From Nitrososphaerales archaeon (GTDB taxonomy: Archaea > Thermoproteota > Nitrososphaeria > Nitrososphaerales > Gagatemarchaeaceae), in contig JASHVX010000010.1 of the NCBI GenBank assembly GCA_030044375.1, positions 1 to 12,473 on the forward strand: a DNA stretch of 12,473 nt, given 5' to 3'. The position numbers were made by a program, and so were the translations under genes. Positions 1-12,473 of the stretch are shown in pieces. The notes under the pieces are model-generated. The model ran no database searches. It saw only the letters and a program-made list of their open reading frames with translations, and was not told the origin of the DNA. The stretch's first letter is position 1. Every line of letters begins with the position of its first letter.

Positions 1-580
1 CACCACCATGGCGCTCGCCAAGGCAGGCGTCCCTACGCCCAAGACCGTCGTGGCCCTCTCGTCTGACTCTGTGGACAAGGCTGCGGGCAGGGTCCGCTTC
101 CCGCTCGTGTTGAAGCCGTTCACAGGTAGTTGGGGCAGGATGGTCAGCATCGCGAAGGACAGCGACTCGTTGACCTCACTCGTCGAAATGCGGGAGGAGA
201 TCCACAACCCGCTCGAGCACATGTACTATCTGCAGGAGTTCGTGCGCAGGCCTCCGCGCGACATCAGGGCGATAGTCACCGGAGACGAGATAGCCGCATG
301 CGTCTTCCGCAACGCGGCCAAGGGCGACTGGAGGACCAACGTGGCCAGGGGCGGCACAACCAAGGCCTTCAAGCCGAGCCCGAGCCTGGTAGAGACGGTG
401 CTGGACGCGGCCGAGGCTGTCGGCGGGGGCGTACTGGGGGTCGACGTGATGGAGTCTCAGGGAGGGTACGTCGTCCACGAGGTGAACAACACCGTCGAGT
501 TCAAGGGCGCCCAGTCGGCGACCGAGGGCAGCATCGCGGCCAAGATCGTCTCCTACGCCGTGCGGAGCCTCAAGAAATGA
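1..580 (+). CDS. argX: ATP-grasp LysW ligase, 5'-truncated by window edge; probably glutamate--LysW ligase (ArgX type)
   Basis: This is the C-terminal 192 residues of a RimK-like ATP-grasp ligase that joins an amino acid to the C-terminal glutamate of LysW. The frame is open through base 2, and the codons before ATG 8 (Thr-Thr) fit the family's ...TTLALAKAGVPTP stretch, so ATG 8 is internal and the start lies outside the window. Visible ATP-grasp motifs are LVLKPFTGSWGRM, YYLQEFVRRPPRD, DWRTNVARGG and the metal-binding end HEVNNTVEFK. It is a clear paralogue of the ligase at 4277-5128; both contain YYLQEFVRRPPRD. Its tail (EFKGAQSAT...) lacks the GVDIPG stretch found in that copy and, as I recall it, in Thermus LysX, so I infer the glutamate-using ArgX role. 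The swap (LysX here, ArgX there) is possible. The stop overlaps the lysY start as ATGA. Confidence 0.8.
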   Translation, partial: TTMALAKAGVPTPKTVVALSSDSVDKAAGRVRFPLVLKPFTGSWGRMVSIAKDSDSLTSLVEMREEIHNPLEHMYYLQEFVRRPPRDIRAIVTGDEIAACVFRNAAKGDWRTNVARGGTTKAFKPSPSLVETVLDAAEAVGGGVLGVDVMESQGGYVVHEVNNTVEFKGAQSATEGSIAAKIVSYAVRSLKK

Positions 581-1638
581 AGGTCGCGGTCATGGGCGCC
601 TCCGGCTATGTCGGTGGAGAGCTCCTCAGGCTCTTGCTGCAGCACCCGAAGGCGGACCTCGCCGCCGCCTTCTCGAAGAGGCACAGTGGCGAGTACCTGT
701 TCAGGGTCCATCCGAACCTCAGAGGCGTCACGGAGGCGAAGTTCGCCGCATACGCTGAGCCCGCAAGGATCGCCGACTCCGCGGATGTGGTCTTCACTGC
801 CTTGCCCCACGGAGAGTCTGTCAAGGTGGTCCCCTCGCTCGCGGAGACTGGAGTGAAGGTGGTCGACGTCAGCGCAGACTTCCGGCTCAAGGACGCGTCG
901 AAGTACAGGACGTGGTACGGATACGACCACCCCGCGCCTGAGGTCCTCAAGGACTTCGTCTACGCGGTCCCTGAGCTGAACAGAGAGGAGATCAGGAGGA
1001 CCGCCCTGGCCGCCTCGCCCGGCTGCACCGCGATAACCTCTATCCTCGCGCTCGCGCCTCTGCTTTCAGAACACTCGCTGGGGGTCGACAGGGAACACAT
1101 AGTGGTCGACGCCAAGGTCGGCTCGTCGGGCTCCGGCGGGAAGGCCTCTCTCTCGACGCACTTCTCAGAGCGCTATGGCGTGGTCAGGCCCTACAAGCCT
1201 GCGGGGCACAGGCACTCCGCCGAGATAGAGCAGGTACTGGCCGGCGTCTGCGGAGAGGAGGTCAGCGTCTCCATGTCCGCCCACGCGGTCAACATGGTCC
1301 GCGGGATACTCTCCACGTGCCACGTCTTCGTCCAGGGCTCGCCGAACCCGGTAGACATCTGGAAGGCGTATCGCAGGGTCTATCAGGGCTCGTACTTCGT
1401 ACGCCTTGTCAGAGACAAGGAGGGCCCGTTCCGCCTCCCCGACCCCAAGCTAGTCGTAGGCTCGAACTTCTGCGACGTGGGGTTCGAGCTCGAAGGCAGG
1501 ACGAAGAGGGTGGTCGCGTTCGGCGCCACGGACAACCTGATGAAGGGAGCGGCGGGGAACGCAGTGCAGACGATGAACCTGATGTGCGGGCTGGACGAGA
1601 GGGAGGGCCTGAACTACGCGCCCCTGCACCCGGTGTAG
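577..1638 (+). CDS. lysY: LysW-L-2-aminoadipate/LysW-glutamyl 6(5)-phosphate reductase (N-acetyl-glutamyl-phosphate reductase family)
   Basis: This 353-residue protein is of normal length for ArgC/LysY. It reduces the acyl phosphate on LysW-bound aminoadipate (or glutamate) to the semialdehyde with NADPH. The N-terminus has the dinucleotide-binding motif GASGYVGGELLRLL (residues 7-20). The catalytic cysteine is Cys150 in SPGCTAIT, and the family histidine is His211 in the PAGHRHSAEIEQ stretch. KVGSSGSGGKAS (about 180-191) is also typical. Start: ATG 577 overlaps the upstream stop as ATGA and has GGAG at 564-567, nine bases upstream. The frame is open further upstream, but that part has no homology and overlaps the ligase. 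It is the third cytoplasmic step of the LysW pathway and is probably bifunctional for lysine and arginine, as only one reductase is present beside two ligases. Confidence 0.95.
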   Translation: MKVAVMGASGYVGGELLRLLLQHPKADLAAAFSKRHSGEYLFRVHPNLRGVTEAKFAAYAEPARIADSADVVFTALPHGESVKVVPSLAETGVKVVDVSADFRLKDASKYRTWYGYDHPAPEVLKDFVYAVPELNREEIRRTALAASPGCTAITSILALAPLLSEHSLGVDREHIVVDAKVGSSGSGGKASLSTHFSERYGVVRPYKPAGHRHSAEIEQVLAGVCGEEVSVSMSAHAVNMVRGILSTCHVFVQGSPNPVDIWKAYRRVYQGSYFVRLVRDKEGPFRLPDPKLVVGSNFCDVGFELEGRTKRVVAFGATDNLMKGAAGNAVQTMNLMCGLDEREGLNYAPLHPV

Positions 1639-1641
1639 CAG

Positions 1642-2445
1642 ATGAGACTCGTAGTGAAGATTGGGGGGAGCCTGCTCGTCGGCGGAGTCCCCAAGGCCAT
1701 AGTCGAGGACGCAGCCGCGCGCGCAGCCTCGGACCAGCTCGTCCTCGTCCACGGCGGCGGGGGCTTGGTCACGGACATGGCCCAGAAGCTGGGCAAGGAA
1801 CAGCGCTTCATCACCTCGCCGGATGGGATCAGGAGCCGGTACACGGACAGGGAGACCGCGGAGATATACACGATGGTGATGAGCGGCCTCGTGTCCAAGA
1901 GGCTCGTCGCCGCGCTCGCGGAGAAAGGGACGAGGGTGGTCTCCTTGACCGGTATGGACGGGGCCCTCTTCCAAGCCGCCCGAAAGAAGAAGCTCGTCGC
2001 TGTCGACGAAAGAGGCCGAAGGATGCTCATCGACGGTGGTTACACCGGGCGCGTGCGGCAGGTAGACTCGGCCCTGCTCGAGCTGCTCCTCGTCAACGGC
2101 TACCTGCCGCTGGTCTCCCCGGTGGCAATCAGCGAGGAGTGCGAGCCTCTGAACATCGACGGCGACAGGGCCGCGGCCAGCGCCGCCGCAGCTCTGAAGG
2201 CCGACGCGATAGTCTTCCTGACGAACGTGGACGGGCTCATGATGGACGGGAAGCTGGTACCCACGCTAAGCGCCGCCAAGGCCAAGGCGCTGCTCCCTTC
2301 AATCGGCCCCGGCATGCAAAAGAAGGTGATGGCCTCCGTCGAATGCGTGGAGGGGGGCGTCGCCGAGGCGGTCATCTGCTCCGGGTCGACGAAAGGCCCG
2401 ATAGGAGCCGCGCTCAGGCACGACAACTGCACGGTGATATCATGA
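1642..2445 (+). CDS. lysZ: LysW-aminoadipate/LysW-glutamate kinase (amino acid kinase family)
   Basis: This 267-residue amino acid kinase phosphorylates the side-chain carboxylate of LysW-bound aminoadipate (or glutamate) with ATP, the step before LysY. Motifs in order: VVKIGGSLL (4-12, with Lys6), VHGGGG (36-41), SRYTDRETAE (65-74), NIDGDRAAA (171-179), FLTNVDGL (192-199) and GPGMQKKV (222-229). These match ArgB/LysZ, and the length fits. It starts three bases after the lysY stop; a GGTG at 1632-1635 is the likely ribosome binding site. Its stop overlaps lysJ as ATGA, so translation is probably coupled. An acetylglutamate kinase (ArgB) of a classical arginine pathway is the alternative by sequence alone, but lysW and two LysW ligases next door favour LysZ. 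Confidence 0.94.
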   Translation: MRLVVKIGGSLLVGGVPKAIVEDAAARAASDQLVLVHGGGGLVTDMAQKLGKEQRFITSPDGIRSRYTDRETAEIYTMVMSGLVSKRLVAALAEKGTRVVSLTGMDGALFQAARKKKLVAVDERGRRMLIDGGYTGRVRQVDSALLELLLVNGYLPLVSPVAISEECEPLNIDGDRAAASAAAALKADAIVFLTNVDGLMMDGKLVPTLSAAKAKALLPSIGPGMQKKVMASVECVEGGVAEAVICSGSTKGPIGAALRHDNCTVIS

Positions 2446-3632
2446 CAGCGACAACCGAGACAGAGGACGCGCACGGCTCATCGTCGTTCCAGAAGTTCCC
2501 GCTCACGCTGGTGCGGGGGAGTGGCGCCGTCGTATGGGACGACAGGGGGAAGGAGTACGTCGACTTCATGGCGGGCTACGGGGTAGCGATCATAGGCCAC
2601 TCCAATCCGGCGGTCGTGAACGCTGTCTCAAAGCAGGCGGCCGACCTCATAACGTGTCACGGCTCGTTCTACAACGACGCGCGCTCCTCCTTCCTCGAGA
2701 AGCTCACCGCGGCCACGCCCAAGGGGCTCGAAAGGGCGGTGCTCACCAACAGCGGCGCCGAGTCCGTGGAAGCCGCCATCAAGCTCGCCCGCAAACACAC
2801 CGGCCGCTCAAAGATAGTGTCGATGAAGGGCGGCTTCCACGGCAAGACCTATGGCGCGCTCTCAGCGACCTGGAACAAGAAGTACAGGGAGCCCTTCGAG
2901 CCGCTCGTCCCCGGCTTCGAGTTCGCCGACTACGGGGACCTCTCTTCGCTGGCGAAGTGCGTCACTCAGGAGACGGCCGCCGTCATAGCGGAGCCGATAC
3001 AGGGAGAGACAGGCATCATAGTGCCACCCGACGACTACCTAAGGGGGGCCAAGGAGCTCTGCGACCGCGCAGGTGCGCTCCTGATCCTAGATGAGATCCA
3101 GACGGGCCTGGGGAGGACAGGGAAGATGTGGGCCTCGGAGCACTGGGGCGTCGTCCCCGACATCATGACAGTGGCCAAGGGCATCGGGGGCGGCGTCCCC
3201 CTCGGAGCCGCGGTCGCGAGGGCCGACATCGTCTCGTCTCTGCAGAAGGGGGAGCACACGAGCACCTTCGCCGGGAATCCTCTCGCATGCGCGGCCGGAG
3301 CCGCGACCCTCGACTTCATCAAGCAGGTCAACCTTCCCGGGATGGCCGCGGCCAAGGGGACGGCCCTGGCCCAGGGCCTGGGGAAGATCGCGCGCGAGCA
3401 CAGGGTTGCGAGAGAGGTCAGAGGCATGGGGATGATGCTGGCGCTCGAGCTGAGGATAGACATCCAGCGCCTGCTCTCAAGGGCGATGTCGGACGGGGCC
3501 ATCTTCGGCTACTCGGGGAGGAACACCGTAAGGCTCCTACCTCCCGTGGTCGCAACAGAGGACCAGACACGGCGCGGCCTTGAAATCCTGGCTCGCGCAG
3601 TCGACGCGGAGGAGAAGGCGCATGCCGGATAA
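2442..3632 (+). CDS. lysJ: LysW-lysine/ornithine semialdehyde aminotransferase (class III PLP)
   Basis: This 396-residue class III aminotransferase converts LysW-bound aminoadipate semialdehyde to LysW-lysine (or glutamate semialdehyde to LysW-ornithine) using glutamate. Visible family features are [20 protein letters not shown] (about 102-121), [11 protein letters not shown] (130-140), AEPIQGETG (183-191), [12 protein letters not shown] (216-227, Asp217 contacting the PLP ring) and [13 protein letters not shown], where Lys246 is the Schiff-base lysine. [12 protein letters not shown] (272-283) and NTVRLLPP (361-368) are also typical. Start: ATG 2442 overlaps the lysZ stop and lies just after GGTGAT (2433-2438). 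The frame is open far upstream, but that part is antiphase to lysZ and has no aminotransferase sequence. The 3' end overlaps the regulator gene by 11 bases. Confidence 0.95.
3608..3614 (+). promoter_or_regulatory. Ribosome binding site of lysM, decides the start
   Basis: GGAGGAG lies seven bases before ATG 3622, inside the end of lysJ. It supports 3622 over the in-frame ATG 3580, which would add a basic, non-conserved 14-residue extension. Confidence 0.75.
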
Positions 3633-4038
3633 GACTGACGAGCTCATAATCCGTCTACTATCAGCGAACTCCAGAGCCTCGAACACGGAGATCGCCCAGA
3701 AGCTCAACATGTCAGAATCTGCGGTGCGGAGGAGGATTGGCAACCTCGTGAAGTCCGGGCGGATCAGGAAGTTCACCCTCGACGTCGACGACGCCAACTC
3801 GAGCAGCGCCATAACCTGGGTTTCGGTGAACCCTTCAGTCCCCACCTCGGACGTGAGCCAGAAGATAAAGGGCGTACCAGGCGTCGTGGTCGTCTACGAG
3901 ACTGCGGGCCAGTTCGACATAGCCGTCGTGCTGCAAGGTGCGAACGTCGTCGAGCTCAACAGGTCTGTAGAAGGAATCCGCAGAATCGGTGGCGTAATAA
4001 GCACAAGCACAGCGATGGTCTTGCGCACCATTCGCTGA
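3622..4038 (+). CDS. lysM: Lrp/AsnC-family transcriptional regulator, LysM-like
   Basis: This 138-residue protein has the two-part Lrp/AsnC layout. An N-terminal winged helix-turn-helix (about 5-52) contains SNTEIAQKLNMSESAVRRRI (20-39) followed by the wing VKSGRIRKFTLDVD. A RAM ligand-sensing/oligomerisation domain follows (about 62-138), with the GQFDIAVVLQG strand at 96-106. The length is a little under the usual 140-160. It overlaps lysJ by 11 bases and sits directly before the lysW promoter. In Sulfolobus solfataricus the Lrp-like LysM holds the same position beside lysW and controls lysine biosynthesis, so I infer a local regulator of this cluster responding to lysine or a related amino acid. 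Orthology to LysM rests on position and family, not on a computed tree. Confidence 0.85.
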   Translation: MPDKTDELIIRLLSANSRASNTEIAQKLNMSESAVRRRIGNLVKSGRIRKFTLDVDDANSSSAITWVSVNPSVPTSDVSQKIKGVPGVVVVYETAGQFDIAVVLQGANVVELNRSVEGIRRIGGVISTSTAMVLRTIR

Positions 4039-4044
4039 TTACGC

Positions 4045-4055
4045 ACGATTATCGT
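4045..4055 (+). promoter_or_regulatory. 11-bp dyad at the lysW promoter, candidate operator
   Basis: ACGAT-T-ATCGT is a perfect inverted repeat about a single central base. It covers the expected BRE position and touches the TATA-like element at 4053-4060. Lrp-family regulators bind dyad sites at promoters, and the adjacent gene encodes one, so this is a plausible LysM operator. The site is short and chance occurrence cannot be excluded. Confidence 0.4.
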
Positions 4056-4060
4056 TAAAT
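4053..4060 (+). promoter_or_regulatory. TATA-box promoter for lysW-lysX-lysK
   Basis: CGTTAAAT in the 45-base gap after lysM is AT-rich in an otherwise GC-rich context. Archaeal transcription begins roughly 25-27 bases downstream of the box centre, which predicts a start near 4082-4086. The mRNA would then be leaderless from ATG 4084, or carry a short leader with the GGGAGG site before ATG 4102. Confidence 0.55.
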
Positions 4061-4085
4061 CCTCCCCGCTGCTCCCTGTTACCAT

Positions 4086-4091
4086 GGGAGG
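4086..4091 (+). promoter_or_regulatory. Ribosome binding site of lysW (for ATG 4102)
   Basis: GGGAGG lies ten bases before ATG 4102 and supports that start over ATG 4084. The ATG at 4084 ends within this motif and could only be used in a leaderless way. Confidence 0.5.
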
Positions 4092-4101
4092 CACGTCACC
4101 G

Positions 4102-4272
4102 ATGAACTGCCCCGAGTGCGACTGCCAGATTCCCATCCCCAACGACGCGATTCAGGGCGAGCTGGTCTCCTGCAAGGACTGCGGGACCTCGTACGAGCTC
4201 GTGAGGGAGCCCGGCTCCAACCTCTTTTCGATGCGGGCGGCCGAGCTAGAGCAGGAAGACTGGGGAGAGTAG
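4102..4272 (+). CDS. lysW: LysW amino-group carrier protein
   Basis: LysW is the small acidic carrier whose C-terminal glutamate accepts aminoadipate or glutamate, protecting the amino group and presenting the substrate to LysZ, LysY, LysJ and LysK. From ATG 4102 it is 56 residues, close to the Thermus protein's 54. It has a zinc-finger-like pair of Cys motifs, CPEC (Cys3, Cys6) and CKDC (Cys24, Cys27). It ends in the diagnostic EDWGE, with Glu56 as attachment point. An extra Cys8 lies next to the first motif. An in-frame ATG at 4084 would give 62 residues with the prefix MGGTSP. I prefer 4102 for its GGGAGG site and for family length, but 4084 fits a leaderless transcript. The next gene, lysX, begins five bases after the stop. 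Confidence 0.93.
   Translation: MNCPECDCQIPIPNDAIQGELVSCKDCGTSYELVREPGSNLFSMRAAELEQEDWGE
4262..4267 (+). promoter_or_regulatory. Ribosome binding site supporting a non-canonical lysX start
   Basis: GGGGAG, within the last codons of lysW, is nine bases before ACG 4277. This is the normal spacing for a start codon, yet none of ATG, GTG or TTG occurs there in the lysX frame. Confidence 0.5.
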
Positions 4273-4276
4273 TCGG

Positions 4277-5128
4277 ACGCCGTCCTTCAGCCTCCTCTAC
4301 GACACCATCAGGTGGGAGGAGAAAGCAATCGTCGCCGCCGGCGAGAAGGCCGGAGTAGGCGTCAACCTCGTCGACTCGAAGGATCTGGTCGTGGACCTAG
4401 CCGGCCCGGGCCTGCCGCTGCCAGACGAAGACGTCCTCCAAAGGTGCGTCAGTTACTTCAGGAACGTCCACTCGACTGCGGCCTTGGAGTCTGCCGGCCA
4501 CTCCGTGGTCAACTCCTTCCGCACAGCCTGGGTCTGCGGCAACAAGCTCTTCGGCAGCCTCGCCTTGGTCAGGGCGCGCATCCCCACGCCCCACACCAAG
4601 CTCGCGCTTGACGAGGGATCCGCAGTGGAGGCGATCAGGTCGCTCGGCTATCCGGCCGTCCTGAAGCCCGTGGTCGGAAGCTGGGGGCGGCTCGCCGCGC
4701 TCGTCAAGGACGAGGACTCGGCGAGGGCGATAATCGAAGACAGGGAGAGCATGTTCCCGCTTTACCAGGTCTACTACCTCCAGGAGTTCGTACGGAGGCC
4801 CCCCAGGGACCTGAGGACCTTCGTAATCGGCGGGGAGACCGTGGCCGCAATCTATCGGATATCCGGCGGATCTGACTGGAGGACCAACACGGCCCGCGGC
4901 GGGAAGGCGGAGCCTTGCGCGATCACCGAGGAGCTGGACGACCTTTCTGTCAAGGCCGCAGACGCCGTCGAGGGCGAGATAGTCGGCGTCGACATCATGG
5001 AGTCAGACGGCGGGCTCCTGGTCCACGAGGTCAACAACACCACCGAGTTCAAGAACACGGTGCCTGCGACCGGGGTCGACATCCCAGGCTTAATAGTGAA
5101 GTACATGGCCCAGAAAGCAAAGCGATGA
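4277..5128 (+). CDS. lysX: Alpha-aminoadipate--LysW ligase (ATP-grasp), apparent ACG start
   Basis: LysX uses ATP to link the alpha-amino group of aminoadipate to the C-terminal Glu of LysW. Counted from ACG 4277 the protein has 283 residues, near the family's roughly 280. The N-terminal segment SLLYDTIRWEEKA (5-17) matches the LysX opening (Thermus: AILYDRIRPDE..., recalled). VLQRCVSYFRNVHSTAALES (53-72) follows. The ATP-grasp motifs are VLKPVVGSWGR (128-138), YYLQEFVRRPPRD (166-178), DWRTNTARGG (200-209) and HEVNNTTEFKN (250-260). GVDIPG (266-271) is the feature that makes me call it LysX. Oddity: between the last in-frame stop (TAG 4247) and GTG 4391 there is no ATG, GTG or TTG. A start at GTG 4391 would remove 38 conserved residues. 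ACG 4277 has GGGGAG nine bases upstream. Either a near-cognate start or an ATG-to-ACG error explains this. The stop overlaps lysK as ATGA. Confidence 0.85.
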   Translation, partial: TPSFSLLYDTIRWEEKAIVAAGEKAGVGVNLVDSKDLVVDLAGPGLPLPDEDVLQRCVSYFRNVHSTAALESAGHSVVNSFRTAWVCGNKLFGSLALVRARIPTPHTKLALDEGSAVEAIRSLGYPAVLKPVVGSWGRLAALVKDEDSARAIIEDRESMFPLYQVYYLQEFVRRPPRDLRTFVIGGETVAAIYRISGGSDWRTNTARGGKAEPCAITEELDDLSVKAADAVEGEIVGVDIMESDGGLLVHEVNNTTEFKNTVPATGVDIPGLIVKYMAQKAKR

Positions 5129-6234
5129 AGACGATCGGCGACGAAAGCGCCGTCGACCTCCTGACCGACTCTGTGAAGATCTACTCGCCGACGGGGGATG
5201 AGGGGGCGGTCTCGGGGTTCTTCTCGGACTGGATGAGGAAGGCAGGCTTCCGTCACGTCAAGACCGACGGGGCGGGCAACGCCATCGGTTCGGCGGGGAG
5301 AGGCGAGAACAGCGTGCTTCTCTGCGGCCACATCGACACCGTGCCGGGAAGGATCCCCGTCAAGCTGACGGGCGGCCGCCTGGCGGGGCGAGGTTCGGTG
5401 GACGCGAAGTCACCCATGTGCTCGATGCTCATGGCGGCTAGGCGCTTCCTTGACGACCCCTCTCTGGCACTGACGGTGGTGGGAGCCACCGCAGAGGAGG
5501 GGGACGGGAGGGGCATCTCGAGCCTCACGGCCGACCCGTCGAACTACAGGTTCGCCGTCTTCGGGGAACCGGGCGGGGCAGGGAGGGTCACGGTCGGATA
5601 CAGGGGGAGGGTGACGTTGGAGGTCTCAGTCACCACAGGCGGCGGCCACGCGGGTTCGTCGTGGGCTCACATGAGCGCCTTCGAGGAGGCCTCTGACATC
5701 GTCGCCCGTCTGAAGGAGTACGAGCGGACCCACTCACTCGCGAACGACCACTACCACTCAGTCTCAGTATCGACCACTCTGTTCCGGGCCGGCGAGTATC
5801 ACAACGTCGTCCCGGCGCGGGCCAGCTTCACGTGCGACGTCAGGGTCCCGCCTGGCTCCAGCTGTTCCCGGGTCAGAAGAGACATCTCGGCCGTGCTCCG
5901 TGCCTATTCGAGGTCAGGCCGCGCGCGCGTCGAACACAGCTTCGGCGAGTCGACCAGCCCGTACGAGGCGTCCCCTTCCTCCCTCCTGGTGAGGGCCTTC
6001 CAGAGAGCGATCCTTCTCACGCTGAAGTCGCGGCCCGTCCTGCTCAAGAAGACGGGGACCGGCGACATGAACACCTTCGCGGCGATGAAGAATTCAGAGT
6101 GCGTCACCTACGGTCCGGGCGACGCCAGCCTCTCCCATACAGGGAAGGAGTCGGTCGAGATAGACGATTACCTCAGGAGCATAGCCGTGCTCGCCGAAGC
6201 TCTCACCCAAGTCAGGCAGCTCTCATCCGGCTGA
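5125..6234 (+). CDS. lysK: LysW-lysine/ornithine carboxypeptidase (M20 metallopeptidase)
   Basis: This 369-residue M20-family zinc hydrolase cleaves finished lysine (or ornithine) from the LysW C-terminus, the last step of the pathway. Metal-site motifs in order: CGHIDTVPG (67-75; His69, with Asp71 behind it), GRGSVDAKSP (88-97; Asp93 bridging), ATAEEGDGRG (121-130; general base Glu124 and ligand Glu125), FGEPGG (146-151; Glu148) and SLSHTGKE (335-342; His338). The GGGHAGS stretch (172-178) marks the lid/dimerisation domain. TGTGDMNTFA (310-319) is typical of LysK/ArgE/DapE relatives. ATG 5125 overlaps the lysX stop. The frame is open upstream but antiphase to lysX. It closes the lysW transcription unit; a new promoter follows directly after its stop. 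Confidence 0.94.
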   Translation: MKTIGDESAVDLLTDSVKIYSPTGDEGAVSGFFSDWMRKAGFRHVKTDGAGNAIGSAGRGENSVLLCGHIDTVPGRIPVKLTGGRLAGRGSVDAKSPMCSMLMAARRFLDDPSLALTVVGATAEEGDGRGISSLTADPSNYRFAVFGEPGGAGRVTVGYRGRVTLEVSVTTGGGHAGSSWAHMSAFEEASDIVARLKEYERTHSLANDHYHSVSVSTTLFRAGEYHNVVPARASFTCDVRVPPGSSCSRVRRDISAVLRAYSRSGRARVEHSFGESTSPYEASPSSLLVRAFQRAILLTLKSRPVLLKKTGTGDMNTFAAMKNSECVTYGPGDASLSHTGKESVEIDDYLRSIAVLAEALTQVRQLSSG

Positions 6235-6236
6235 AG

Positions 6237-6245
6237 ATTTAATTA
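6237..6245 (+). promoter_or_regulatory. TATA-box promoter of the ATP synthase cluster
   Basis: ATTTAATTA lies just after the lysK stop in the 52-base gap. Its distance rule predicts transcription starting near 6267, giving a leader of about 11 bases to TTG 6278 or 20 bases to ATG 6287. It separates the amino-acid cluster from the ATP synthase genes. Confidence 0.55.
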
Positions 6246-6286
6246 CGGAAAGCCGAGGCAGACGCAAGAGACTCCGCTTGGCTTCT

Positions 6287-6607
6287 ATGGTCGAGAGCAC
6301 CATCAAGGCGCTCGTTGAATTCGAGACCGAGCTGGATGGCATAAAGGCGGAGGTCTTGGCTTCCAAGAAGAGGATGGTCCAGGACGCCACTGACCTCGCG
6401 GAGTCGGCGAGGTCAAAGGCCGTCGCGAAGGCGCAGTCGCAGGCCTCCGAAATGCTCGTCAGGGCTCGCTCGGAGGCAGAAGCCGGGGCCAAGTCGATAG
6501 GTGAGAAGGGCGCTGCTTCGTTGAAGTCGCTCGAGTCGTCAATCTCGAAGAGGAAGTCCAAGGCTACGGAGTCCGTAGTGGCGAGCCTGTTGGGTGAGAA
6601 GCAGTGA
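6287..6607 (+). CDS. ahaH: A-type ATP synthase subunit H (coiled-coil peripheral stalk)
   Basis: This 106-residue protein is almost entirely predicted helix/coiled coil, rich in Ala, Glu, Lys and Ser (for example ASKKRMVQDATDLAESARSK). In archaeal ATP synthases subunit H pairs with subunit E to form the peripheral stalk linking the catalytic head to the membrane part. Assignment rests on its size, composition and position as first gene of an ATP synthase cluster, as coiled coils carry little family-specific signal. Start: ATG 6287 is taken; an in-frame TTG at 6278 would add Met-Ala-Ser and sits closer to the predicted transcription start. Neither has a clear ribosome binding site. The stop overlaps subunit F as GTGA. 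Confidence 0.75.
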   Translation: MVESTIKALVEFETELDGIKAEVLASKKRMVQDATDLAESARSKAVAKAQSQASEMLVRARSEAEAGAKSIGEKGAASLKSLESSISKRKSKATESVVASLLGEKQ

Positions 6608-6900
6608 GAGTCGTCGCTGTCGGAGGTAAGGCGTTCGTGACAGGGTTCGTCCTCTCGGGCGTCAGCGGGCAGTACGCCTCCACTCCGGCCGAGGCCCTCA
6701 GCGTGGTCCAGAAGCTGGTTGCCGACCCCAAGGTCGGGCTGATAATGGTGAGCGACGAGGTCGCGAAGCCGCTCGCCTCGCAGCTGACGGCCATCCGCGC
6801 TCAGAGGGCCACGCCCCTGATCTATGAGGTCCCCGGGCCCGGGAGCAAGAAGGAGAAGGTCGACTACCGGGCGATGCTGAGGAGCATCCTGGGAGTCTGA
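6604..6900 (+). CDS. atpF: A-type ATP synthase subunit F (central stalk)
   Basis: This 98-residue protein has the subunit F layout. An N-terminal strand (VVAVGGKAF) leads into the FVTGFVLSGV region. STPAEALSVVQKLVADPKVG (26-45) and GLIMVSDEVA (45-54) form the CheY-like fold. The characteristic P-x-IYEVPGPGSKK stretch lies near the C-terminus. Subunit F binds subunit D in the rotating central stalk. The start is GTG 6604, overlapping the subunit H stop and preceded at six bases by GGGTGA (6592-6597). In many archaeal clusters F lies after C and before A; here it lies between H and E. Confidence 0.88.
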   Translation: MRVVAVGGKAFVTGFVLSGVSGQYASTPAEALSVVQKLVADPKVGLIMVSDEVAKPLASQLTAIRAQRATPLIYEVPGPGSKKEKVDYRAMLRSILGV

Positions 6901-6907
6901 CAGTCGC

Positions 6908-7504
6908 ATGAGCAACCCAGCGGAGGACACACTGGAGAAGGTCTCCGGCGAATTCGAAGCCGAGATGCTCTCCGAGCTCCAGGCAGGCCGGGATCAGGCG
7001 TTGTCGGCGCTCGAGGCCGCAAAGCGAGAGACGAGGGCCGAGGTCGCCAAGGTCCTCGAAGCGGGCGCCAAGCAGGCAGAGGCACTGAAGCGGCAGATCA
7101 TAGGAGCCGCGGAGCTGGAGGCGCGCAACTCCCAGTTGAAGGCTGTAGAGAGCGCGGTCGTCGACGTCTTCGAGGCCGCGACCAGAGAGCTCCGGGAGGG
7201 CGCCGGAGCCAGGTACGAGAAGGCGCTCGCAGGCCTCGTCGACGAAGGAGTCGGGATCATAGGGCCGAAGTCAAGGGTCTACTGCCGGAGCAAGGACCGC
7301 AAGGCCGTTTCGGCCGCGCTCCGCGGCCACGGTGAGGGCCAGTCCAAACCGGTCCTCGAAGAGAAGGAGATCGAAACGATAGGAGGTGTTGTCATGACGT
7401 CGGCCGACGGGTCGGTAAGGTTCGACAACACCTTCGAGGCCAGGCTCGAAAGGATGAGGCCGACGCTCCGCATGCAGGCCTCGGCCATCCTGACTGGAAC
7501 CTAG
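6908..7504 (+). CDS. atpE: A-type ATP synthase subunit E (peripheral stalk)
   Basis: This 198-residue protein has the normal length and two-part form of subunit E. A long N-terminal helix (about 1-95, Ala/Glu/Lys/Arg-rich) pairs with subunit H. A globular C-terminal domain contains IGGVVMTSADGSVRFDNTFE (about 156-175) followed by ARLERMRP, the family signature. The domain contacts the top of the A3B3 head. ATG 6908 starts seven bases after subunit F; the ribosome binding site is weak (GGGAG at 6890-6894 is rather far). A 70-base gap with its own promoter follows before atpA. Confidence 0.92.
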   Translation: MSNPAEDTLEKVSGEFEAEMLSELQAGRDQALSALEAAKRETRAEVAKVLEAGAKQAEALKRQIIGAAELEARNSQLKAVESAVVDVFEAATRELREGAGARYEKALAGLVDEGVGIIGPKSRVYCRSKDRKAVSAALRGHGEGQSKPVLEEKEIETIGGVVMTSADGSVRFDNTFEARLERMRPTLRMQASAILTGT

Positions 7505-7519
7505 AAACTCGAGCCGGAC

Positions 7520-7530
7520 CGGTGACACCG
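7520..7530 (+). repeat. 11-bp inverted repeat upstream of the atpA TATA box
   Basis: CGGTG-A-CACCG is a perfect dyad with a one-base centre, six bases before the AT-rich element. It has the same 5-1-5 geometry as the dyad at the lysW promoter, though a different sequence. It may be a regulator site. Confidence 0.35.
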
Positions 7531-7536
7531 ACCAAG

Positions 7537-7544
7537 AATTATAA
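7537..7544 (+). promoter_or_regulatory. Internal TATA-box promoter for atpA-atpB-atpD
   Basis: AATTATAA in the gap between atpE and atpA is a good archaeal TATA box. The predicted transcription start is near 7567, only about eight bases before the TTG start of atpA, so the transcript would be nearly leaderless. No purine-rich ribosome binding site is visible. Confidence 0.55.
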
Positions 7545-7546
7545 GC

Positions 7547-7560
7547 CCTCTCGCGAGAGG
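7547..7560 (+). repeat. 14-bp perfect palindrome between TATA box and start of atpA
   Basis: CCTCTCGCGAGAGG is fully self-complementary and lies between the TATA box and the expected transcription start, where a bound repressor would block polymerase. It would be at most marginally inside the transcript, so an operator is more likely than an RNA hairpin. Confidence 0.5.
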
Positions 7561-7574
7561 TCGCCCAATTCGCT

Positions 7575-10500
7575 TTGGCAGTCAAGGGACGCATCGAGTG
7601 GATTTCAGGTCCCGCGGTCAAGGCTTCCGGGATGTCCGCCGCGAAGATGTACGAGGTGACGCAGGTCGGCGAGGAGAAGCTCGTCGGCGAGGTCATAAAG
7701 CTCACGGGCGACATCGCATTCGTCCAGGTCTACGAGTCTACGAGCGGACTCCGACCAGGAGAGCCTGTCCTCGGGACCGGTCAGCCATTGTCGACGACGC
7801 TCGGCCCTGGCATGATAGGGACCATCTACGACGGCCTGCAGAGGCCTCTTGACGTCATAGCGAAGAAGGCAGGCGCGTTCATCACAAGGGGCGTCTCGGC
7901 GAACTCCATCCCGTTCGACAAGGAGTGGGCTTTCACGCCTTCCGTGAAGAAGGGGGACGACATCGAGGGCGGAAGCATAATCGGCACCGTCCCAGAGACG
8001 CCGCTCATAGAGCACAGGGTGCTCGCTCCGCCGGCAGTTCCAAAGGCGAAGGTCAAGGAAGTGAAGAAGGCAGGGAACTACAGGATAGACGAGACAGTGG
8101 TCGAAGCCGAAGACAAGGCCGGTAAGAAGTACGAGCTGATGCTCCACCACAGGTGGCCCGTCAGGACTCCAAGGCCGATACGCGAGAGGCTCGACCCTGA
8201 GATTCCGCTAATGACAGGTCAGAGGGTCTTGGACTCGTTCTTCCCGATGGCCAAGGGGGGGACCGGTGCGATCCCCGGCGCCTTCGGGACTGGTAAGTGC
8301 GTCCCAGCTGGCACCCCGGTGATGCTCTCCGACGGTCACCTCGTCCCCATCGAGGAGCTCTATGCGACCTTCGCTGGCCCGGAGGACGACGCTGGCGGAG
8401 AGTCGTTCATCCCGGCAAGGGGGGTCGCCATCATGGCCTTCGACGGGTCCTCGATGGTAGAGCAGGAGATATCGCACGTCTACAGAGGCAGGACCGGCAG
8501 TCTCGTCAACATCCGCACGTCGAGCGGCAGGTCGACGACCATCACGCCCGCTCACAAGCTGTTCCGTTTCAGGTCCGACGGCAGGTTCGAGGAGACGCCT
8601 GCCGCCGAGTTGAGCGTCGGCGACTACATCGCCCTCCCTAGGAGAATCTCGATTAGAGGGGCGCTCCAAGCGATAGACCCGTACTCGGTCGAAGGGCGGG
8701 TGACGGAGGCCCAGGTCATAGACGCGGTCAGAGAGACGATACGCCGACAAGCGAAGGTCCATGGGTCGATCAAAGCACTCTCCCACGCGCTGGGAATCTC
8801 GGAAGTCGTGGTCCGCGGCTACCTCAACGGCCCCAACAGGCCCTCGACCTCGTTCGTTTCGAAGATCTACGAATCGGCCGGCTTGGAGAGGCCAACGCTC
8901 TCCTCGGTCGGAACTGAAAGGAGCAGTGGCAGCGTGAGGATGCCTGCGGAGATGAACGAGGACTTCGCCGAGTTCCTCGGCCTGCTGCTCTCAGACGGGA
9001 TGGTCGCCGGAAGGGAGGTCCGCTTCTTCAACAACGACCCACAGCTCTTGCGGCGGTTCGGTTCGCTCACAGAGACGCTCTTCGGCCTCAAGGCGGTGCC
9101 AAAGCGCTTCAACACGGTAGACGGGCTATCTGTCAGGAGCGTCGTCGTCATACGTCTGCTCAGGAAACTAGGCTTCCCGGCAGGCCACAAGTCCCGCACA
9201 GCCATCGTGCCCTCGGCCATCATGAGGTCTCCAGACGCCGTCATCGGAGCTTTCATCCGAGGCTACTACATGGGCGACGGCTCATTCAGCCAAGGGACTC
9301 TCGAGATAGCATCCGAGTCGCCGGTCCTCATTGACGGGATGTGCTATCTTCTCAGCCGGCTGGGAGTCCTCTATTCGATAATGGGAGGGAAGCGCAGCGG
9401 TCGTAGGCTTATCGTAAGCAGTGTCAAGGAGCTGCGAAACTTCCTAGAGAGGACGGGAGTGCAACACGCATACGGAGGAGCCAGAAAAGTATCTTCGATC
9501 GTAGACCACGCTTCGAAAGACTGGACAAGCCAGACACGAGACGTCGTCCCGCTGGACGCCAACCTCCTCAGGTCAGGGTTCAACCCAAGGGATGTGGAGA
9601 ACTATGTCCGTGGCGGGGAAAGGCTAGGCATCTCGAAGTTCCAGGAACTGGTCAGGCTCGGCGGGCGGTCAGAAGCCATCGCAGGAAGGATGGCTGAGCT
9701 TGCGCAGGCCCTCGAAGTCGTCTTCGTTGACAGGATAGAACAGGCAGAGGTCCTCGAAGGCGCGCAGACGGTCTACGACATAACCGTGCCAGATTACCAC
9801 AACTTCGTCGGAGGCTACCAGCCGATTCTTCTGCACAACACCGTCACCCTACACAGCGTGGCAAAGTGGGCTGACGCGAAGGTCGTCTTCCACATAGGCT
9901 GCGGCGAGAGAGGCAACGAGATGACCGAGGTCCTCGTCGAGTTCCCTGAGCTGATAGACCCGAAGAGCGGCCGCCCCCTCATGGAGAGGACCATCCTGAT
10001 CGCGAACGTCAGCAACATGCCCGTAGCCGCGAGGGAGGCTAGCATCTACACTGGGGTCACCATGGCCGAGTACTACAGGGACATGGGCTACGACACCGTG
10101 CTCGTCGCTGACTCGACAAGCCGCTGGGCAGAAGCCCTGCGCGAGATAAGCGGAAGGCTCGAAGAGATGCCCGCAGAGGAGGGTTACCCGTCATACCTGG
10201 CTTCCAGGCTCGCCGAGTTCTACGAGCGGGCAGGCAGGGTCGACCTCATAGGGACGCCTTCGAGGACAGGCTCCATAACACTGATTGGCGCGGTGTCTCC
10301 GGCCGGCGGCGACTTCACGGAGCCGGTGACGTCTCAGACGATCAGGTTCGTCAGGACCTTCTGGTCGCTCGACGCCAGGCTCGCGTACTCGCGGCACTAT
10401 CCTTCCATCAACTGGATGAGCTCCTACTCTGGCTACATCGAGTCGGTCAGCAAGTGGTGGAACGAGAGGGTCGACAAGGAGTGGCTCAGCATAAGGGCCG

Positions 10501-10904
10501 ACGCCTATTCCATCTTGCAGCGCGAGGACGCCCTGAAAGAGATAGTCAGGCTCCTAGGGCCCGAAGCGCTCCCAGACGAGGAGAAGCTGATACTGGACGT
10601 CGCGAGGATGATTCAGATAGGGTTCCTGCAGCAGAACGCGTACGACGACACCGACGCCTACTGCAGCCCACAGAAGCAGTTCATGATGATGAGGATGTTC
10701 GTCCAGTACCACGAGGAGGCCCTGAGGGCGCTGAGGGGAGGCGTGCCCCTGGCGAAGATACGCGGGATGCAGGTCATAGCGCCGATGCTCAGGGCGAAGT
10801 TCGCCATCAAGAGCGAAGACCTCGGCAAGCTGGAGGCGCTCGGCAAGCAGATGATGGACGAGTTCTCAAGCCTATCGAAGCCCATTGAGGCGGCCGCCAC
10901 ATGA
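7575..10904 (+). CDS. atpA: A-type ATP synthase catalytic subunit A, intein-containing precursor
   Basis: This 1109-codon frame encodes the catalytic A subunit split by an intein; removing 514 residues leaves 595, normal for the family. The N-extein (1-241) has the beta-barrel opening ([16 protein letters not shown]), the [13 protein letters not shown] segment, the A-subunit-specific non-homologous region (about 115-190) and the first part of Walker A, GAFGTGK. The C-extein resumes with Thr ([10 protein letters not shown]), so the spliced P-loop reads GAFGTGKT. Further on are [13 protein letters not shown], the Walker B region [16 protein letters not shown] (Asp near residue 332 of the spliced protein) and [19 protein letters not shown]. 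The start is TTG 7575: conserved sequence begins just downstream and the next in-frame ATG would lose it. The stop overlaps atpB as ATGA. The intein needs to splice for ATP hydrolysis or synthesis. Confidence 0.96.
8298..9839 (+). mobile_element. 514-residue intein with LAGLIDADG homing endonuclease in the AtpA P-loop (VMA-b type site)
   Basis: The insert begins at Cys242 of the precursor (intein Cys1) and ends at an Asn, before extein Thr+1. Splicing blocks: [15 protein letters not shown] (1-14); [11 protein letters not shown] (77-86, with the T-x-x-H pair Thr83/His86); [16 protein letters not shown] (492-506); G, PILLHN (509-514), with penultimate His and terminal Asn. The endonuclease lies at about 220-395. 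Its first LAGLIDADG-like motif is FLGLLLSDG (Asp233); a block D-like [16 protein letters not shown] follows (290-305), then the second motif [12 protein letters not shown] (Asp327). All key residues for splicing and both acidic residues for cleavage are present, so splicing and homing are predicted to be intact. The site, between Lys and Thr of Walker A, is where Thermoplasma and Pyrococcus VMA inteins sit; those I recall are shorter (about 170-380 residues). Confidence 0.95.
8706..8882 (+). other. Putative helix-turn-helix segment inside the intein
   Basis: Intein residues 137-195, between the first splicing half and the endonuclease, look like a small helical DNA-binding domain. A helix [20 protein letters not shown] precedes [20 protein letters not shown], which reads as a helix-turn-helix resembling XRE-like motifs. 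[18 protein letters not shown] completes it. It could add sequence recognition to the homing endonuclease. The call is by eye only. Confidence 0.5.
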
Positions 10905-12313
10905 GCCGGTCTTCATCTGGGCTGGAATACAGCAAGGTAGCCGAGATCAGGGGACCGCTGCTCGTCGTCGACGGAGTTGACAAGGCCGCCTTCGACGAAC
11001 TTGTCGAGATCGAGGACAGCGAGGGGAAGAGGAGGCTCGCAAGGGTGCTCGAGACAGGGTTCGGCAAGGCCGTCGTCCAGGTCTTCGAAGGCACCTCCGG
11101 CCTATCGGTGAGCGGGACGAAGGCTCGCTTCCTCGGCAGGACGATGCAGCTTCCGGTCTCAGACCAGCTCCTTGGAAGGGTCTTCGATGGCCTCGGCAGG
11201 CCGCTCGACGGGCTCCCTGAACCCGTCGCGAAGAGCTTCCTCGACGTGAACGGCGCGCCTCTGAACCCAGAGAGGAGGGAGTATCCCACCGACCTGATCC
11301 AGACGGGCGTCTCCGTCATCGACGGAATGCTGACGCTCGTCAGGGGCCAGAAGCTCCCGATCTTCTCGGGCGCGGGGATGCCCCACAACAGGCTCGCGGC
11401 CCAGGTCGCGAGGCAGGCCACTGTGGTGGGCGAAGGCGAGGAGTTCGCCGTCGTGTTCGCCGCGGTCGGCGTGTCGAGCAGCGACGCCACCTTCTTCCAG
11501 AGGACGCTGGCCGAGTCGGGCGCCATCAGGAGGAGCATCCTCTACCTAAACTTGGCCGACGACCCGGCCATCGAGAGGATCATCACGCCGCGCGTAGCCC
11601 TGACAGCGGCCGAGTATCTGGCCTTCGAGCTCCACATGCACGTGCTGGTCATAATCACGGACATCACCAACTACTGCGAAGCGCTCAGAGAGATATCGGC
11701 CGCGCGAGAGGAGGTTCCCGGAAGGAAGGGCTTCCCCGGGTACCTTTACACCGACCTCGCCATGAACTACGAGAGGGCGGGCAGGATCAAAGGGATGAAG
11801 GGGAGCATCACACAGATGCCTATGCTGACCATGCCCAGCGACGACGTCACCCACCCGATACCCGACCTGACGGGCTACATCACCGAGGGCCAGGTCTTCC
11901 TCTCTCGCGAGCTCTTCAGGAAGGGCATCTACCCTCCCGTCTACGTCCTCTCCAGCCTCAGCAGGCTGATGGGCCCCGCGCTGGGCCACGTCATCAAGGA
12001 AGGCAAGGCGCGCCCCGACCACCAGCAGGTCGGCAACCAGCTCTACAACGCCTACGCGAGGGCCATCGAGCTCCGCGCGCTCGCAGAGATCGTGGGCAAG
12101 TCGGGCCTCACAGGCTCTGACCTCAAGTACATCACCTTCGGCGACGAGTTCGAGCAGAAGTTCCTCAACCAGGGGTACGACGAGAACAGGACCTTCGAGG
12201 ACACGCTCAGGATAGCGTGGGAGACGCTCTCCATCCTCCCCCAGAGCGAGCTCACCAACATCAAGGAAGAGTTCATCCAGAAGTACTACGTGAAAGACAG
12301 ACAGGCAGGCTGA
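10901..12313 (+). CDS. atpB: A-type ATP synthase regulatory subunit B (non-catalytic)
   Basis: This 470-residue protein alternates with subunit A in the A3B3 head and carries the non-catalytic nucleotide sites. The opening [18 protein letters not shown] (10-27) is the beta-barrel domain, followed by [16 protein letters not shown] and [13 protein letters not shown] (92-104). At the Walker A place it has [13 protein letters not shown] (156-168), which lacks GKT as expected for B. Other signatures are [32 protein letters not shown], and [14 protein letters not shown] followed by [19 protein letters not shown] 10901 overlaps the atpA stop, with GAGG ten bases upstream. The length is normal and no insert is present. 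Confidence 0.97.
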
Positions 12314-12323
12314 AGGGAGACAG

Positions 12324-12473
12324 ATGTCGGTAGCCTCAGGCTCGAACGTCCTCCCGACGAAGATCGAGCTCATCAGCACTCGCAGGCGACTTCAGACCGC
12401 CGTGAGGGTCAAGAACGTCCTCGACGACAAGCGCGACGTCCCCCTCAAGCGCCTCGACGAGATGATCCAGCAG
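12324..12473 (+). CDS. atpD: A-type ATP synthase subunit D, 3' end beyond the window
   Basis: The first 50 codons of subunit D, the coiled-coil rotor shaft in the A3B3 head. The opening NVLPTKIELISTRRRLQTAV matches the family's V-x-PTK-x-x-L start. The helix then continues as VKNVLDDKRDVPLKRLDEM to the window edge. ATG 12324 follows the atpB stop by ten bases, with GGGAG at 12315-12319 as ribosome binding site. The frame is open to the last base. Confidence 0.9.
   Translation, partial: MSVASGSNVLPTKIELISTRRRLQTAVRVKNVLDDKRDVPLKRLDEMIQQ

Follow-up and report, generated by a model that had tools for sequence, protein, structure and literature searches.

A VMA-b intein that splits the P-loop of subunit A in an archaeal A-type ATP synthase, and the history of its family

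How does a gene for the catalytic subunit of an ATP synthase come to carry a large insert within its catalytic loop? This question is raised by the contig JASHVX010000010.1 of a Nitrososphaerales archaeon (assembly GCA_030044375.1), of which positions 1 to 12,473 were analyzed and are referred to here as the window. An uninterrupted frame of the forward strand (7575-10904) encodes the archaeal A-type ATP synthase subunit A with an insert of 514 residues at 8298-9839, positioned between the Lys and the Thr of the P-loop (GAFGTGK/TVTLH). Our study indicates that this insert is a real, apparently intact and very probably mobile intein of the VMA-b group, a known kind of element found here in new copies. 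The trees support horizontal spread for the family, as the original prediction on this locus had suggested, while a recent arrival of this copy is not shown.

The insert, its splicing motifs and its site

Class 1 inteins have Cys or Ser at their first position, a T-x-x-H motif in block B, and a C-terminal His-Asn pair followed by Cys, Ser or Thr. A scripted check located all of these features, with Cys1, T83-P-A-H86 as the only T-x-x-H of the insert, H513-N514, and Thr as the +1 residue. These residues, together with D233 and D327 of the endonuclease, stand exactly where the original prediction had put them, and its boundaries for a large, apparently intact intein with an endonuclease were right to the residue and are kept unchanged. 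The intein model search that it had proposed gave matches above the cut-off with Pfam Intein_splicing (PF14890; residues 9-514, E 3.8e-20, 72.7 bits against 35.8) and with NCBIfam intein_Nterm (TIGR01445; residues 1-89, 42.9 bits against 24.5) and intein_Cterm (TIGR01443; residues 492-514, 29.9 bits against 15.6). The closest solved chain is 7qss, the TliVMA intein (E 1.5e-46), and the predicted structure of the intein is confident almost throughout, with 7 of its 514 residues at a predicted local distance difference test (pLDDT) value of 50-70 and none lower.

The host protein is equally recognizable: the precursor matches the domains ATP-synt_ab, ATP-synt_ab_Xtn, ATP-synt_VA_C, and ATP-synt_ab_N, and its best NCBIfam model is PRK14698, at 1000.8 bits and under its cut-off of 1238. 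An intein of the VMA-b (vma-1b) site separates Lys from Thr in the P-loop of a V/A-ATPase subunit A, a site that corresponds to the position between Lys240 and Thr241 of the Pyrococcus horikoshii subunit A (PMC2814812; also PMC8966425). The site had been predicted to be a known one, and it is indeed occupied in Pyrococcus/Thermococcus (PMC2814812, PMC8966425) and, going by the title of a reference in PMC2814812 and a PDB title only, in Thermoplasma; the labels of close relatives of our intein (P0004 and P0027, "Nitrososphaerales archaeon"; P0006, "Thaumarchaeota archaeon") point to a different archaeal lineage for the present host. In an unrooted tree, 30 VMA-b rows are separated from six IF-2, four RadA, and one helicase intein by a split with support of 100/96, and our intein clusters with the VMA-b rows and not with those from other genes.

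In the proposed mechanism, the precursor would be made as a single chain, and class 1 splicing by Cys1, the block B Thr and His, His513-Asn514, and Thr+1 would excise the 514 residues. The joining of Lys to Thr, which leaves GAFGTGKTVTLH as the spliced extein junction, would complete the Walker A loop and hence the catalytic subunit. The earlier claim that the ATP synthase depends on splicing follows from the position of the insert, since the P-loop must be rejoined, and the host genome (166 contigs, 72% complete) yielded only a single gene for subunit A.

Distribution and history of the intein family

A protein search with the intein part (E <= 0.001, scoring the 7992 candidates with the most shared words) matched 87 proteins, the window's own included; 81 were subunit A precursors, and 78 had both junctions, again counting the window's own. 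The labels of the VMA-b relatives, where given, include Nitrososphaerales, Thaumarchaeota, Njordarchaeales, Odinarchaeia, halobacterial genera, and Euryarchaeota. A single scan of genome contigs with the intein yielded two weak matches, both in other genes, one on a woesearchaeote and one on a paceibacterote contig. A text search of the literature found no paper joining the terms "intein", "Nitrososphaer", and "ATP synthase", and neither PMC6863869 nor PMC10640624 uses the word "intein" in its main text.

The comparison of a VMA-b intein tree with an extein tree, also proposed in the original prediction, revealed a strong conflict across the family. It centers on eight precursors with GPFGSGK/TVxQQQ exteins (P0027, P0029, P0031, P0032, P0034, P0035, P0036, and P0040), which the intein tree places within a 40-row clade together with 27 rows around the window (support 100), and the extein tree places in a 29-row branch with halobacterial rows (Shimodaira-Hasegawa-like approximate likelihood ratio test, SH-aLRT, 88). 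In approximately unbiased (AU) tests, each data set rejects the clade of the other tree: p-AU is 0.0005 for the 40-row clade on the exteins and 0.0002 for the 29-row clade on the inteins. This conflict, with rejection both ways, supports horizontal spread for the family and, as far as the sequences can tell, the crossing of inteins between two deep ATPase types. Well-supported conflicts also occur among the 27 rows around the window, where P0017 joins P0019 in the extein tree and P0019 joins P0022 in the intein tree. One of these 27 rows, P0011, shares only 53% identity with its kin over the 20 residues that follow the intein, compared with 92% over the 280 residues beyond them, and we suspect that this patch is a co-conversion tract.

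Because of their place beside Halobacteria, we infer that the eight GPFGSGK precursors are the "V-type" of PMC6863869 and PMC10640624, which describe horizontal movement of ATPase operons in Thaumarchaeota; for the Gagatemarchaeaceae, a GC content of 54-62% and a split between A and V ATPases are given in PMC10640624, and the 63% GC of the window suggests, as a guess, a link of the host to this family. Two of the eight are tied to the order of our host, P0027 by its label and P0034 by its link to contig C44 of genome G064. A tentative scenario, plausible but somewhat short of an even chance, is that a VMA-b clade whose endonuclease is flanked on both sides by a DNA-binding module crossed between A-type and V-type-like ATP synthases inside Nitrososphaeria, once transfer had brought in V-type operons. 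In that case, the intein would testify that both operons were at one time together in one cell, and its N-side helix-turn-helix may allow targets as unlike as GAFGTGK/TVTLH and GPFGSGK/TVSQQQ.

The history of the window's own copy (P0001) was examined through its nearest relative, P0002, the corresponding gene of genome G077. Both are sisters in the intein, extein, and further trees, and they are 78% identical across the intein, compared with 89-91% across the exteins. Synonymous divergence (dS), obtained by a scripted Nei-Gojobori method whose values are high and should be considered approximate, is 0.82 in the intein and 1.12 and 1.00 in the exteins. Neither the sister position in both trees nor the similar dS suggests that the lineage acquired its intein only after separating from G077; recent arrival of this copy is therefore not shown. 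Base composition likewise gives no clear sign of it, the GC content at third codon positions (GC3) being 0.77 in the intein, 0.79 in the N-extein, and 0.85 in the C-extein, in a window of 63% GC. Between P0001 and P0002, the ratio of nonsynonymous to synonymous divergence (omega) is 0.16 for the intein as a whole, 0.10-0.21 for its individual parts, and 0.06-0.07 for the exteins. In the comparison with G091, omega is 0.28 for the helix-turn-helix part, and the C part of the HINT domain is saturated.

Within the host genus, the N-extein was matched in 28 of 31 genomes, including a weak match in G124 that does not cover the P-loop. Identity to the N-extein is 80-100% for thirteen genes, three with the intein (those of the host genome, G077, and G091) and ten empty at the site. 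The occupied state needs two changes within the genus, and a tree in which the three occupied genes form a group is compatible with the DNA data (p 0.117) but rejected by the protein data (p 0.013). A further 17 genes have 48-52% identity to the N-extein, and of the 16 that were read, 15 are empty. The occupied one lies on contig C91 of G097: a divergent subunit A gene, 48% identical to the N-extein, in which an intein begins at this site (GGFGTGK/CVLPETR), in a genome with another subunit A gene that is empty. In a sample of 300 genomes of the order, among the matches listed, the frames other than those of the host, G077, and G091 have 313-647 residues, the shortest being partial. Full-length intein matches at the same site were also found in G064 (46%) and G021 (42%) of the order. 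Several genomes of the order, G042, G057, and G074 among them, have two matches at E <= 1e-30, which implies that two such subunit A genes can apparently share a cell.

Persistence of the intein and alternative explanations

The endonuclease domain matches LAGLIDADG_3 (PF14528, E 7.5e-15) in two stretches, with an acidic residue in each repeat (D233 and D327). Such an enzyme would cleave intein-free subunit A genes at their P-loop codons, and repair of the break would then copy the intein in; the element would be a selfish one that persists since its loss must be precise. Across the 78 VMA-b inteins, Cys1, T83, H86, H513, and N514 are identical in all, and an acidic residue is present at both endonuclease positions in 64, the remaining 14 being without one at one or both. 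Invariant splicing residues together with occasional loss of the endonuclease are the pattern expected from the homing cycle. A separate observation concerns P0039 and P0044, an intein pair on a long branch in which both acidic residues are replaced (G/R and C/R) and whose exteins are on short branches, a pattern that, judged from these sequences, is one of endonuclease decay.

It is important to consider that damaged endonucleases do occur in this family, as the 14 inteins above indicate, and that an inactive endonuclease has been published for PhoVMA, which occupies the same site (PMC8966425). The window's intein might therefore splice but carry an already dead endonuclease, being kept only because precise loss is rare late in the homing cycle. 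We consider this unlikely, given that both aspartates are present, the frame is intact, the structural model is confident over nearly all residues, and the omega of the endonuclease domain is 0.15 against G077 and 0.13 against G091. Vertical inheritance with frequent loss, which would reduce the tree conflict to a long-branch artefact or to transfer of the ATPase genes instead of the intein, seems to us less probable still. This explanation would account for the agreement of intein and extein on P0001 and P0002 and for the genus-level grouping that DNA does not reject, ATPase operons themselves are transferred in Thaumarchaeota (PMC6863869, PMC10640624), several rows of the trees are long, and the tested extein branch has a support of 88. 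However, operon transfer moves extein and intein jointly and by itself produces no disagreement between trees; neither the eight GPFGSGK rows nor the 27 window-side rows are among the long rows listed; the 40-row clade is kept (support 99) without four long rows and with TliVMA/PhoVMA stretches added; and the AU tests reject in both directions.

The original prediction also proposed that the intein could be a post-translational switch of the ATP synthase; splicing would then be conditional on temperature, redox state or salt. Its position in the catalytic loop should indeed make the precursor inactive, and conditional splicing has been described for other inteins, such as that of P. horikoshii RadA (PMC5790916); however, nothing seen in the sequence points to conditional splicing, and a useful switch would not predict that 3 of the 13 same-type genes of the genus are occupied and 10 are without the intein, which makes it very improbable that the intein is kept for this purpose. 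A redox switch through a second cysteine was rejected, because the intein has just one further cysteine, C349, and only 6 of the 78 inteins have Cys at that position. Finally, a sequencing or assembly artefact or a pseudogene could be suspected in a genome as fragmented and incomplete as this one, and yet relatives with the same junctions are present on other contigs at 78%, 66%, and 63% identity, and the frame has no in-frame stop and a low dN/dS, so that this explanation can be practically dismissed.

A mobile VMA-b intein with occupied and empty alleles within one genus, in a lineage outside the hyperthermophiles with solved VMA-b structures, offers a natural setting for homing studies. The disagreement of the intein tree with the extein tree is relevant to the exchange of ATPase operons in Thaumarchaeota, tied to adaptation to acid and pressure in PMC6863869, and the helix-turn-helix-like module bears on how inteins widen their target range, a question raised for the TliVMA accessory domain in PMC8966425.

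Gene context and comparison with known inteins

The features of the window are collected in Table 1. A subunit E-like frame (6908-7504; best model under its cut-off) and two small frames lie upstream of the subunit A gene, and the downstream frame at 10901-12313 reads like subunit B, a putative assignment from the reading of the frame alone. Directly upstream of the ATP synthase genes, window positions 2-6234 hold a LysW-dependent lysine/arginine biosynthesis cluster.

Table 1. Coordinates of the intein, its host gene, and the neighboring biosynthesis genes in the window.
Feature	Position	Strand	Basis or remark
A-type ATP synthase subunit A precursor (host gene and intein)	7575..10904	+	1109 aa, TTG start in this reading
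N-extein, last residues the P-loop GAFGTGK	7575..8297	+	aligns with intein-free genes of the genus as far as residue 241
Intein, 514 aa, VMA-b site	8298..9839	+	Pfam, NCBIfam, and PDB matches, motif check, predicted structure
HINT splicing domain, N part (residues 1-118, boundary set here)	8298..8651	+	Cys1 8298-8300, T83 8544-8546, H86 8553-8555
Four-helix, helix-turn-helix-like (XRE/Cro-C1) module (residues 138-194), between HINT-N and endonuclease	8709..8879	+	predicted structure
Two-repeat LAGLIDADG homing endonuclease domain (residues 216-394, boundary set here)	8943..9479	+	D233 8994-8996, D327 9276-9278
C-side accessory helical module (residues 395-471, boundary set here)	9480..9710	+	predicted structure, 7qss alignment
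HINT splicing domain, C part (residues 472-514)	9711..9839	+	H513-N514 at 9834-9839
C-extein, Thr+1 (TVTLH) to stop codon	9840..10904	+	frame, Pfam, motif check
RimK-like ligase	2-580		truncated by contig end
ArgC/LysY	577-1638		
LysZ-type kinase	1642-2445		
ArgD/LysJ-type transaminase	2439-3632		
LysM-like regulator	3622-4038		score under model cut-off
LysW-like carrier	4084-4272		score under model cut-off
LysX (second RimK-like ligase)	4391-5128		
LysK-type hydrolase	5101-6234		

The original prediction regarded the intein as larger than known VMA-b inteins. This holds against the solved Thermococcales examples of 376 and 429 aa (PMC8966425), whereas 514 residues is normal within its own clade, 77 of the 78 inteins with both junctions having 494-539 residues and one having 397; size alone as the mark of an unusual intein was thus rejected. 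Most of the additional length comes from an insertion of about 87 residues ahead of the endonuclease; it contains the helix-turn-helix-like module, with helices at 138-155, 158-165, 169-177, and 184-194 in the model. On the window's copy, HTH_3 matches residues 150-190 under its cut-off of 23 (E 0.0033, 17.9 bits); at the same place, P0005 (HTH_3, 26.2 against 23) and P0025 (HTH_31, 29.0 against 27) exceed theirs, and five of eight relatives checked have no match. Many top rows of a fold search with the module have the XRE/Cro-C1 fold, with modest scores, and the region is filled in 76 of the 77 other VMA-b inteins. On the other side of the endonuclease, helices between residues 396 and 471 align with the accessory region of 7qss, i.e. 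with the TliVMA accessory domain described in PMC8966425. Both modules probably add DNA contacts.

Compared with TliVMA of Thermococcus litoralis (PDB 7qss/7qsu; 429 aa), our intein is about 85 residues longer. In TliVMA-type inteins, an unstructured loop of 28-32 residues joins HINT-N to the endonuclease (PMC8966425), whereas this connection has about 95 residues with four confident helices here; the phmmer stretches end at 118 in the query and 127 in the chain and resume at 205 and 138, so that about 10 residues face about 86 that include a helical module. The helix-turn-helix-like module is an addition that the solved VMA-b inteins are without. PhoVMA of P. horikoshii (PDB 7qst; 376 aa) has a degenerate, inactive endonuclease (PMC8966425), and ours preserves both aspartates. 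The other VMA-b inteins of about 515 aa (P0002-P0081) share the site and length class and are at most 78% identical to ours. Outside the VMA-b group, the DNA polymerase intein PI-TkoII/PI-PkoII (PDB 2cw7; 537 aa) has another host gene and site and 21% identity. A second P-loop intein of 499 aa was observed in a RadA-like gene of the host genome (contig C118, approximately 3217-4713; GEFGSGK/C ... HN/SQ), as were two further C-terminal intein-like ends under the family cut-off (C47:2288-2395, minus strand, and C96:551-673, plus strand). The aIF5B/IF-2-like inteins of the same archaeal family (522-523 aa), found in six genomes (L008-L012, L014; L015 is partial) at GHVDSGK/T (GHTDAGK/T in L010), are also inserted after the P-loop Lys and show a near full-length similarity of 25-27%, but they form a separate clade, and the idea of recent copying between the IF-2 and VMA-b inteins of this family was therefore rejected.
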